This document shows positions 7,137 through 17,355 of a stretch of 64,000 nucleotides of DNA, piece after piece. The stretch comes from Prorocentrum cordatum (Eukaryota; Sar; Dinophyceae; Prorocentrales; Prorocentraceae): contig CAUYUJ010011170.1 in the NCBI GenBank assembly GCA_963575745.1, positions 272,001-336,000 on the forward strand, in the 5' to 3' direction. The notes beneath the pieces are model-generated. The model searched no databases. It was not told the DNA's origin and was given only the letters and a program-made list of their open reading frames with translations. Both the position numbers and the translations under genes were made by a program. The first letter of the stretch is position 1, and each line of letters begins with the position of its first letter.

Positions 7137-7204
7137 TAACGTCTGTTCCTGCCAACGGGGCTTCTGTTCTTGCCAACGGGGCTTTGGAAATCGGGCCCCT
7201 GCGG

Positions 7205-7420
7205 CGATGGATCCTGATGATGGTGGTGATGATAATGGCGATGGTGATGGCATTGATGATGATGAGGAGGTGGAGGAGGATGATTGTGACGATGGTGTGG
7301 ATGGTGATGGTAGTGTTGGTGTTGGTGATGAAGATGATGATGATGGTGATGATGATGATTGTGATGATCATGATGAGCTCGTCAGCATCAGTACCATCAC
7401 CTTCCTCATCGTCATCATCG
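7205..7420 (+). repeat. GAT-rich low-complexity tract, left arm
   Basis: Runs of GATGATGG and GATGGTGAT-like units. The mirror tract (ATC-rich) is at about 17070-17290. Apparent Asp-rich or Met-rich peptides here are composition effects. Confidence 0.8.
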
Positions 7421-7888
7421 TCGTCATCGGGGGAAGAGGGGAGGGTGATCAGGAAGAGCATGGAAGGGGAGGAGGTCCACTGGTGGGAGAGCATGGTGAG
7501 ATGCTGTTTCGAGGTCCACTGGCTTTGGGCGCCAGCGCCCGTCAGCGGGGCCACCCCGACTTGGGGGGTTCGCCATCCCCTCCTGGTCGACGACGACGAC
7601 GACGACGACGACGGCGACGACGGCGACGACGACGACTGCCGGTCCCAAATCGGCGGTTCAAAATCGGTCCCCAGACCCTTGCCAGGGTGCATTCGGATCA
7701 GTTTCCCGTCGGGGATCGACTTCTGGGGGCCCCTGAGTCCGAAGCCGGCCTCCAGAAACCGAAGTCGAGGAACAATCCCCTGAATCGATGATCGCAGGCC
7801 GGGCCACGTCGTGCCCGTAGCCTCGGCGGGGCGTGCGTCGAGAGCTCCGAATCCCCCATAGGTGCATACGGGAGCTGGTAATCCCCAG

Positions 7889-8020
7889 TCGTCGTCGTCG
7901 TCGTCGTCGTCGTCGTCGTCGTCGTCGTCGTCGTCGTCGTCGTCGTCGTCGTCGTCGTCGTCGTCGTCGTCGTCGTCGTCGTCGTCGCGTCGTCGTCGTC
8001 GTCGTCGTCGTCGTCGTCGT
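7889..8020 (+). repeat. (GTC)n microsatellite, left arm
   Basis: Nearly pure GTC repeat of about 130 bp with a phase slip near 7987. Its mirror is the (GAC)n tract at about 16437-16579. Confidence 0.95.
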
Positions 8021-8290
8021 CGCGTCGGCGTCGGCGTCGGCGTCGGCGTCGGCGTCGGCGTCGGCGTCGGCGTCGGCGTCGGCGTCGGCGTCGGCGGCGT
8101 CGGCGGCGTCGGCGTCGTCGGCGTCGGCGTCGGCGTCGGCGTCGGCGTCGGCGTCGGCGTCGGCGTCGGCGTCGGCGTCGGCGTCGGCGTCGGCGTCGGC
8201 GTCGGCGTCGGCGTCGGCGTCGGCGTCGGCGTCGGCGTCGGCGTCGGCGTCGGCGTCGGCGTCGGCGTCGGCGTCGGCGTCGGCGTCGTC
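8021..8290 (+). repeat. (GGCGTC)n hexamer array, left arm
   Basis: About 45 copies of a GGCGTC hexamer with a few shortened units near 8095-8125. It reads as Val-Gly or Ala-Ser repeats depending on frame. The mirror is a GCCGAC array at about 16270-16436, which is shorter and carries more interruptions. Confidence 0.95.
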
Positions 8291-14314: not shown

Positions 14315-14484
14315 CGCGTCGCGTCGACCCCGGCGTTGGTTGCCGACACCGCGTGGATCGTTCAACCTTGAACGATCGGCGGTTCCCCCAACGACAGATC
14401 TTTCGACGTCGAGCGATTCTGGGCCGCCGCCGGCGCTCAACGTTGAACGCCGGCGGCGGGGTCGCCGCCGGTCGACACGACGCG
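14315..14484. repeat. 170-bp MITE-like inverted repeat, right arm
   Basis: Mirror copy of 10156-10325. The left end reads CGCGTCGCGTCGACC, one base different from the other copy, and the right end is GGTCGACACGACGCG. Confidence 0.65.
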
Positions 14485-16269
14485 AACCTACCGTATGAGT
14501 GTTGTGGTATGCTTACACATATGTGTGCATATGATTGTGCGCGCGCGGATTGGCAGACTTTGTCCATGGCAGTGCATGTATATGTATGCGTGTACTTGAA
14601 CGGACGGGCCTGCCCACGTTTTACGTACGTATATGTGTGTATACATGCATAGAAATACGTTTGTACATATGTGTATATGTACACATGTAAGCCGGAGCCT
14701 AGTATACATCAACTTTTGAAGATATGTCAGCAATACGTGCACTTTGCACCCGCTATAAATTTAGCTGGGCACGCGGACATCATCACCATCATCATCATCG
14801 TCGTCGTCGCCGTCGTCATCGTCATCATCGTCCGCATCGTCACCATCATCATCATCATCATCATCCCCCTCCCTCCTCCTCCTCCTCCTCCTCCTCCTGC
14901 TCGACGCCACCTCCTCGAAGAAGATCCCTGCTCCTCCTCATCCTCCCTTTCCTCCCCGCTTCAATCTCCCGCTCCTTCTCTTCCTCCACCTTCTCCTCCC
15001 TCCCCTCTTGTCCTCCTCATCCTCCGCTTCCCTCGTCCGTCCTGAGCATCCATTCCCGAGCCCGAGCCGCTTCGGGGTTCTCGTGGGCCGTCTCGGATCC
15101 TCAGGGGTCGCGTTGCCGCCACCCCCGGCCACCCCCTCCCAGGAGCCCGCGGGGGAGGGGGTTTCCGTCCCAGCCGGTTCTGCTGACGGCCCCAAGGCCC
15201 TGTAAGGAGCCTTCGGAATCCGAAAGCGGCTGAAAACCTCCCGTCATGATTTTCGTTCGCGGCGCGGCGAGGTGCTCTTCCTTCCAAGTCGTTTTTGGGT
15301 CACGGCCCTGGGGCCCTCTGAGGGCCCCCGGAGGCCGAAAACGGCCGAACCTCTTGTTCGCGGTGCGACGAGGCCTCGTCGCCCCGCTGGCCCGCTCGAC
15401 GCGACGACGACGACGAGAACGGCGGCGGCGACGACGACGACGACGACGACCACGACGACGACGACGATGACGACGACGACGACGACGACGACGACGCCCG
15501 TGCGTCGTGCCACCCCCGGAGGGCGACACGACGCTCGGGCGCTCGGCCCGCATGGAGGGTTGCCGCGGGGGCAACGCGGTGCCAGGGCGCCGCGAACCAA
15601 CGGGCGGGGAAGACAGGCACGGCGGCGGGCATCGAGGTTCGAGGAAGTTTTCGGCCCTGGGACCGTCGCACAATCGATCCGGGACCAACAAACTGCGTCG
15701 GATGCACCCCAGGAGGGTTCTGGGCACCGATTTTGCGCGGATTTCGTTGACTTTGAAAAGGGGATGCACGCCGAGGTTCGAAGTTCGACTCTCGCGGATC
15801 GAGGTTCGAGGCTTCCTGGCCCTGGGGCCCCCCTCGTCGCCGCGGTCGGGCGCAGCTCGAAAAACTTTTGCGCTTGGACCCCGAAAGGGTCCGGGGACCC
15901 ATTTTGAGGCTGGGGCCCGCAGGCCCTGGAGGCGGCGGGAAAGGCGGCGGCGGCGACGGCGGCGGCGGGCGGGGGGCGGGGGCGGCGGCGACGACGGCGG
16001 CGGCGACGACGACGGCGACAGCGGCGGTGGCGGCGGCGACGACGGCGGCGGCGGCGACGGCGGCGGGCGGCGACGACGGCAGCGAGGGCGACGATGGCGG
16101 CGGCGACGGCGACGACGACGGCGGCGGCGGCGACTGCGGCACCGACTGCGACGACGACGACGACGACGGCGGCGGCGACGGCGGCAGCGGGCACGGCGAC
16201 GGCGACGGCGACGTGCATGGCAGCGGCGACGGCTACGACGACGACGCCGCCGCCGACGACGACGAGGAC

Positions 16270-16579
16270 GACGCCGACGCCGACGCCGACGCCGACGCCG
16301 ACGCAGACGCCGACGAGGATGACGCCGACGCCGACGCCGACGCCGACGCCGACGCCGACGCAGACGACGCCGACGCCGACGCCGACGCCGACGCCGACGC
16401 CGACGCCGACGCCGACGCCGACGCCGACGCACGACGACGACGACGACGACGACGACGACGGCGACGACGGCGACGACGGCGACGGCGACGGCGACGGCGA
16501 CGGCGACGGCGACGGCGACGACGACGACGACGACGACGACGACGACGACGACGACGACGACGACGACGACGACGACGAC
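16270..16579 (-). repeat. GCCGAC hexamer and (GAC)n arrays, right arm
   Basis: Mirrors the left-arm hexamer and GTC arrays, with an added (GGCGAC)n stretch at about 16456-16520 that has no equal in the left arm. The arms have therefore diverged by local expansion. Confidence 0.9.
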
Positions 16580-17355
16580 TGGGGATTCCCAGCTCCCGTA
16601 TGCACCTATTGGGGATTCGGAGCTCTCGACGCACGCACAGCCGAGGCTGCGGGCCCGACGTGGCCAGGCCTGCAAAAGATTGCAAACGGACACCAGTGTC
16701 AGCGATCATCGGTTCAGGGGATTGATCCTCGACTTCGGCTTGTGAAGGCCGGCTTCGGACTCCGGGGCCCCCAGAAGTCGATCCCGGACGGGAAACTGAT
16801 CCGAATGCACCCTGGCAGGGGTCTGGGGACCGATTTTGAACCGATTTGGGACCGACTGTCGTCGTCGTCGTCGTCGTCGTCGTCGTCGTCGTCGTCGTCG
16901 CCGACCAGGAGGGGATTGCGAACCCCCCAATTCGCGGTGGCCCCGCTGACGGGCGCTGGCGCCCAAAGCCAGTGGACCTCGAAACAGCATCTCACCATGC
17001 TCTCCCTCCAGTGGACTTCCTCCCCTTCCATGCTCTTCCTGATCATCCTCCCCTCTTCCCCCGATGACGACGACGATGACGATGAGGGGGGTGGTGGTAC
17101 TGATGATGACGGGCTCATCATGATCATCACCATCATCATCATCACCATCATCATCATCTTCTTCACCACCAACACCAACACCACCATCACCCTCCACACC
17201 ATCGTCACAATCATCATCATCATCATCGCCCTCGTCCAATGCCATCACCATCGTCATGATCATCACCACCATCATCAGGATCCATCACCGCAGGGGGCTG
17301 ATTTCCAAAGCCCCGCTGGCAGGAACAGAAGCCCCGTTGGCAGGAACAGACGTTA

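Follow-up and report, generated by a model that had tools for sequence, protein, structure and literature searches.

Fold-back transposons, in which long terminal inverted repeats (TIRs) make up most of the element, are the closest described systems to the DNA reported here. One example, copy 112 of Galileo (P superfamily) in Drosophila willistoni, is described in PMC4168063 as 9,021 bp long with TIRs of 4,246 and 4,680 bp, and in the account of the Tetris and DAIBAM families in PMC4079207 one transposase is thought to move both. The literature searched, which excludes subscription papers, yielded no report of such a palindromic or fold-back element in dinoflagellates or in Prorocentrum, and the main text of the genome paper on P. 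cordatum CCMP1329 (PacBio and Illumina; PMC10666404) contains neither “foldback” nor “palindrom”. Here we describe a 10.2-kb palindrome in a stretch of 64,000 nucleotides of the Prorocentrum cordatum genome (C11170:272001-336000, C numbers being contigs), referred to below as the window, which has a G+C content of 59.3%. The palindrome belongs to a real family of young, mobile elements of the fold-back kind, and we assign a probability of about 0.86 to the reading that these are non-autonomous DNA transposons moved by a transposase supplied in trans.

The element (window 7138-17354) is a near-complete palindrome of 10,217 bp, in which two arms of 5,082 nt (arm A) and 5,120 nt (arm B) flank a loop of 15 nt, and the arms thus account for 10,202 of the 10,217 bp. 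In a MAFFT alignment the arms agree at 4,522 of 4,853 ungapped columns (93.2%; 540 columns contain gaps), corresponding to a Kimura two-parameter distance of 0.072. The two ends are complementary without a mismatch over 32 nt. A 25-nt piece of the terminus, allowing up to 3 mismatches, matches solely the two element ends within the window and was found in none of 100 shuffles. An identical run of 226 nt between the arms exceeds the longest obtained in 1,000 simulations (172), and may reflect arm conversion predating the present burst of copies, or local constraint. The original prediction for this DNA had proposed a discrete fold-back insert of about 10.2 kb with base-level boundaries, arms of about 5.08 and 5.12 kb, a 15-nt loop and complementary ends of 17 nt. 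The insert, its arms and its loop are borne out, and the complementarity of the ends is exact, over 32 rather than 17 nt. The predicted coordinates were off by one base at each end: T7137 and A17355, which had been placed inside the element, form part of a 4-bp target duplication, AGAT, as other copies show. A TA duplication with the end ACGTC was rejected because it breaks the reading frame of the surrounding gag-like gene and is contradicted by other copies.

The prediction had proposed to look for further copies by their terminal sequence, and this search was productive. In the assembly from which the window is taken (4,128,499,153 bases, 21,875 contigs), the exact 29-nt end occurs at 38 places, compared to none for a reversed-pattern control. 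These places comprise 11 facing pairs on single contigs and 16 single ends, or about 27 insertions, a count that drops slightly if some single ends on separate contigs belong to the same copy. Relaxing the search to a 20-nt end and tolerating as many as 2 mismatches brings in 3 further places with one mismatch and 9 with two; because the control gives 10, older copies with these ends must be few. Two imperfect partner ends raise the number of pairs to 13, of which 10 are flanked by exact 4-bp duplications: AGAT in the window, and TGTT, CTAC, CATT, AAAA, CAAT, AATA, CATT, CTTT and AACG elsewhere (CTTT and AACG from a reading of the flanks by eye). In 11 pairs whose 300-nt flanks were compared, no similarity between different copies was seen at E 1e-6. 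The family is dispersed; C8535 and C14864 have a left flank in common, which points to duplication or rearrangement.

Eight copies with perfect ends, the window's and seven others, have no obvious interruption and measure 10,179-10,590 bp, although one of them, C14902, is missing the loop motif. The remaining perfect-ended pairs include C16334 (12.2 kb, of which 5,000 bases are masked as N) and C13619 (24 kb, with a 14-kb middle that was read at its edges, which gave no identification). In C16585, a shortened copy, the facing ends lie 7.6 kb apart and carry a duplication. This is also the nearest facing pair at up to 2 mismatches, and short deletion derivatives are accordingly scarce. Eight of the 16 single-ended insertions were read, those on C16493, C16518, C17502, C17733, C19112 (two) and C19883 not being among them. 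Arm A is short of its last ~20 nt in C13223, breaks off ~120 nt from its end in C15522, giving way there to LINE-like (long interspersed nuclear element) sequence, is departed from early in C14322 and C14864, and is present only as its outer 1.6 kb in C13220. Deletion and interruption thus do happen. The expectation that palindromes of this size are rare and unstable holds in so far as several copies are truncated or interrupted, but not in view of ten more perfect-ended copies, seven of them uninterrupted at 10.2-10.6 kb.

In C5089 (15.6 kb), arm A carries an extra 5.5 kb of LINE-like sequence, with the LINE-like element at L026:835-5082 (minus strand). It contains an Exo_endo_phos match (E 7.6e-4, under the Pfam cut-off), a C2H2 finger and a reverse transcriptase judged by eye, and a 690-nt portion recurs with 100% identity in arm A of C15522 (end of L043). 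C5089 was considered as an autonomous version of the element and rejected, the additional DNA being LINE-like.

Could the palindrome be rebuilt at each insertion, with one arm copied and then folded back by hairpin or template-switch replication? That the copies fold back near-perfectly would fit such a process, which predicts that the two arms of one copy are each other's closest relatives. The asymmetry of the loop allows the arms to be named A and B whatever the direction of insertion (four copies lie in each orientation), and we compared 15 arms from 8 copies over 3,482 gap-free, repeat-masked columns. Between copies, A differs from A by a mean of 0.93% (0.43-1.61, n=21) and B from B by 1.38% (0.40-2.90, n=28), whereas A and B within a copy differ by 6.49% (5.86-7.64, n=7). 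The tree separates A from B with a support of 1.000, and 167 of the columns hold fixed A/B differences. Eighteen further arms from 10 copies (nine new copies and arm A of C5089), which took no part in defining these sites and were assigned to A or B from their best match or from their ends, show 2,668 right-arm alleles against 15 of the wrong arm. In a leave-one-out analysis that took in 17 copies and 33 arms (6 of these arms partial; C16334 excluded from all arm analyses for its 5,000 N bases), 5,371 alleles were right and 30 wrong, and the longest consecutive run of wrong alleles was 2, in one arm. All 11 perfect-ended copies have one A-type and one B-type end, as do the two imperfect pairs. 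Because each arm is closest to the arm of its own type in other copies, the palindrome spreads as a unit, and rebuilding at each insertion is highly unlikely for the copies sampled. It follows that the palindrome predates the present burst; as a rough guide, its age exceeds that of the burst in the proportion of 6.5% to ~1%. Tracts of exchange between the arms are absent from the copies read.

An artefact of assembly or of strand-switched, folded-back reads also has to be considered, since such fold-back artefacts are known in long reads, as noted in PMC12870357. The flanks differ on the two sides, the insertions carry 4-bp duplications, and the arms differ from one another in the same manner at ~27 places, which makes the probability of this explanation close to negligible.

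Several observations weigh against a transposon family that spreads as intact palindromes. Three of the 13 pairs (C8535, C14902 and C14864) have no duplication. Sixteen of the 38 perfect ends are without a perfect partner on their own contig, which possibly reflects loss in assembly; C106 ends at the contig start, and C11592 and C13412:210487 run into N gaps, the latter after ~100 nt and with no usable arm sequence, as a survivor effect would produce. The missing arm exchange may itself partly be such an effect, should the assembly have dropped or broken up copies whose arms had become identical. Finally, neither a transposase nor a transposase-bearing partner with matching ends was found, the middles of C13619, C14864 and C16585 being unread.

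The site of insertion provides independent evidence for the boundaries. Taking out 10,221 nt, i.e. the element and one AGAT, joins 7137 to 17359 and preserves the gag-like reading frame, as the original prediction had claimed for a join of 7136 to 17358, while a TA-type join runs into stop codons. The open reading frame (ORF) at 17405-18235 has 10 protein matches, of which 8 bear the label Pyramimonas sp. in EukProt. Two of the ten relatives, P0078 and P0069, give ungapped alignments that span the joined flanks. P0078 aligns across the join over 62 aa with 32% identity (E 6.5e-8 among ten sequences) and P0069 over 70 aa with 38.6% identity (E 0.049), of which just 9 aa lie left of the join. 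For both, the right-hand part fits best at shift 0; out of 20,000 shuffles, the score was reached by 0 (left) and 6 (right) for P0078 and by 1 (left) and 0 (right) for P0069. Because these alignments are gap-free, both relatives lack the insert. Gag paralogues that contained the palindrome as part of gag would have spoken for a different origin, and the two relatives that reach the site present it empty, in support, together with the boundaries, the duplications and the ~27 insertions, of a discrete inserted fold-back element.

An intron or introner within the retroelement gene is another candidate explanation, and the P. cordatum genome is described in PMC10666404 as enriched in introns with inverted-repeat ends. 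In-frame removal takes 10,221 nt, however, and inspection by eye revealed no GT, GC or GA...AG pair of that length at the boundaries. With the dissimilar flanks described above, we regard this possibility as very unlikely.

The closest named gag relatives of ORF 17405-18235 are EukProt transcripts of Pyramimonas sp., with 59-77% identity; culture contamination or inter-algal transfer are the explanations considered for this likeness.

What do the arms encode? Pfam scans of two sets of arm ORFs (8 and 25, with one in common; the second set excludes low-entropy ORFs) detected no transposase and no integrase-like transposase. In set one no match reaches the cut-off, the top one being DUF2339 (E 1.9e-7) in a low-complexity stretch, and in set two, likewise free of transposases, the top match has E 3.7e-4. 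The arm ORF 10504-11139 has no match at E 1e-3 among 5.8 billion proteins, and the window gave 0 matches when scanned with Rfam and for tRNAs. Among the 27 ORFs of 150 aa or longer that were followed across copies, 2 are open without a frameshift in all copies and another 2 in six copies out of seven. The two that are always open are overlapping, low-complexity frames in the outermost 0.65 kb of arm A, and in one of them the variable sites fall 4/3/7 on codon positions 1/2/3. From the sequence, the arms show no convincing sign of coding, though coding is not disproved. This bears on a further explanation, in which a linear plasmid or virus with hairpin ends integrated as an inverted dimer. Head-to-head dimers of hairpin-ended linear replicons are palindromes with a short apex, a shape that resembles the one seen here. 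Yet the arms have no convincing coding sequence, differ by 6.5% and are separately inherited, and scans of viral_contigs with one end and one core pattern gave 0 matches, so that we consider such a dimer exceedingly improbable. One end pattern also gave 0 matches in genome_contigs, where the window's own genome records are perhaps omitted.

The TIRs are internally repetitive, with triplet arrays, units of 78-80 bp and a 21-nt tandem at the terminus (Table 1). For the 50-nt palindromes in the units, the covariation score at the true register lies far above that at slid registers. Compensatory upkeep of these palindromes was examined as an explanation and is unsupported, since 66 of 500 shuffles reach the covariation score. 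The outermost 55 nt contain zero fixed A/B differences and only private changes in single copies, and AACG is found at 22 of 22 ends compared. In C13448 and C14411 the first 60 nt are 95% identical to the window ends, after which the sequences diverge save for triplet repeats. One end of each (L048:101-1472 and L049:101-1500) was compared; the two start at the identical base and are 92.8% alike over 1.4 kb. This suggests, from sequence likeness, that a single transposase recognising ~60 nt may serve two families.

Table 1. Features of the palindrome and its insertion site, in window coordinates.
Feature	Position	Strand	Remarks
Gag-like frame, left of insertion	6622..7137	+	relatives align across join
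Left 4-bp target-site duplication AGAT	7134..7137	.	identical to 17355-17358
Palindrome arm A, 5,082 nt	7138..12219	+	arm alignment
Arm A terminal module, 55 nt	7138..7192	+	two 21-nt tandem units (7143-7163, 7164-7184)
Arm A triplet array, CGT/CGG-type	7888..8577	+	Tandem Repeats Finder (TRF)
Arm A outer array, 78-bp tandem units	10572..10930	+	approximate 50-nt palindrome in each unit
Arm A inner array, 80-bp palindromic units	11926..12088	+	
Asymmetric apex loop TTCGAGGAAGCATTG	12220..12234	+	gives element orientation
Palindrome arm B, 5,120 nt	12235..17354	- (read on minus strand)	arm alignment
Arm B inner array, 80-bp palindromic units	12366..12698	-	
Arm B outer array, 78-bp palindromic units	13710..14066	-	
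Arm B triplet array, counterpart of that in arm A	15945..16579	-	TRF
Arm B terminal module, 55 nt	17300..17354	-	
Right 4-bp target-site duplication AGAT	17355..17358	.	identical to 7134-7137
Gag-like frame, right of insertion, frame 1 to stop	17359..17616	+	
Second frame with gag core, right of insertion	17405..18235	+	

We propose that an intact copy would move as one duplex palindrome of 10.2-10.6 kb, with its asymmetric loop and the long TIRs A and B ~6.5% apart. A putative transposase, probably DDE-type and supplied in trans, would recognise the terminal ~60 nt as its end module and insert the complete unit at a target cut with a 4-bp stagger, by chemistry that may be either cut-and-paste or copy-and-paste. 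The palindromic form would have arisen long before the present burst, with copying of the whole unit since.

Genomes usually lose, shorten or homogenise long palindromes, and that distinct arms are kept while the family spreads is unexpected for DNA able to fold back on itself. The copies, nearly identical 10-kb palindromes inserted at different sites of a single genome, form a natural panel in which ~170 fixed markers distinguish the arms, and make the tolerance of dinoflagellate chromosomes for palindromes and the rates of arm exchange and deletion testable. The 60-nt end module could also serve as bait for the putative transposase with its 4-bp target cut. A possible, if rather doubtful, extension is that the nucleus copies and keeps near-perfect 10-kb palindromes without the arm conversion or crossover expected of cruciforms, and that a transposon family exploits this, spreading in obligately palindromic form with each arm a heritable lineage of its own.

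The surroundings of the element were also analysed. Direct repeats of ~324 bp (4151-4472 and 45138-45461), with a possible 4-bp flanking duplication GATG noted by eye, bound a 41-kb segment in which plus-strand ORFs abound. This unit resembles a long terminal repeat (LTR) element of unusual length, ~31 kb without the palindrome. Its start is gag-like, a CCCH zinc finger lies at 18268-19209, and 19219-38645 holds a long series of large plus-strand ORFs with no Pfam match at E 1e-3. A reverse transcriptase lies at 38930-41818 (RVT_1, E 7.9e-11), with GEANNPGP-type motifs upstream at 37239 and, as a variant, at 35962. The protein shares ~50% identity with unnamed ena/jgi proteins and 34% with a 132 kDa protein of Symbiodinium microadriaticum, and has 0 matches in viral_contigs. 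Further tandem arrays of the window are located at 36107-36877 (216-bp units), 47741-48979 (9/18-bp) and 54081-54512 (83-bp).

How does the family compare with known fold-back elements? According to PMC4168063, Galileo copy 112, like the palindrome, has no transposase segment and carries tandem repeats in its TIRs. It is the longest of 191 copies, whereas eight two-ended copies fall into one length class here, and Galileo duplicates 7-8 bp of target in contrast to 4 bp, which sets the palindrome apart from the P superfamily. Tm1 of Meloidogyne (Mutator/Foldback), as described in PMC3169594, shares composite, internally repetitive TIRs, with a mean TIR-TIR identity of 93.15% that is near the 93.2% found here; unlike in our copies, its TIR length is variable, its duplications are 8-10 bp (mostly 9 bp) and some members encode a putative transposase. 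Tetris and DAIBAM resemble the present case as non-autonomous fold-back elements forming two families with common terminal parts, but the account in PMC4079207 gives TIRs of up to 1,735 bp and duplications of 8-10 bp, the length typical of the Mutator/FB lineage. The duplications of 7-10 bp in Galileo, Tm1 and Tetris, as against 4 bp, exclude membership of these groups on the feature tested. Duplications of 4 bp are reported in PMC10045372 for Ginger1, and of 4 bp or ~15 bp for IS481EU, and the palindrome agrees with both in this respect. The same source gives TG..CA as IS481-type ends and TGT as the start of Banshee, different from the AACG..CGTT of our element, which thus departs from IS481EU at its termini. 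Taken together, the palindrome family represents a new variant of the fold-back kind, set apart by its 4-bp duplications.

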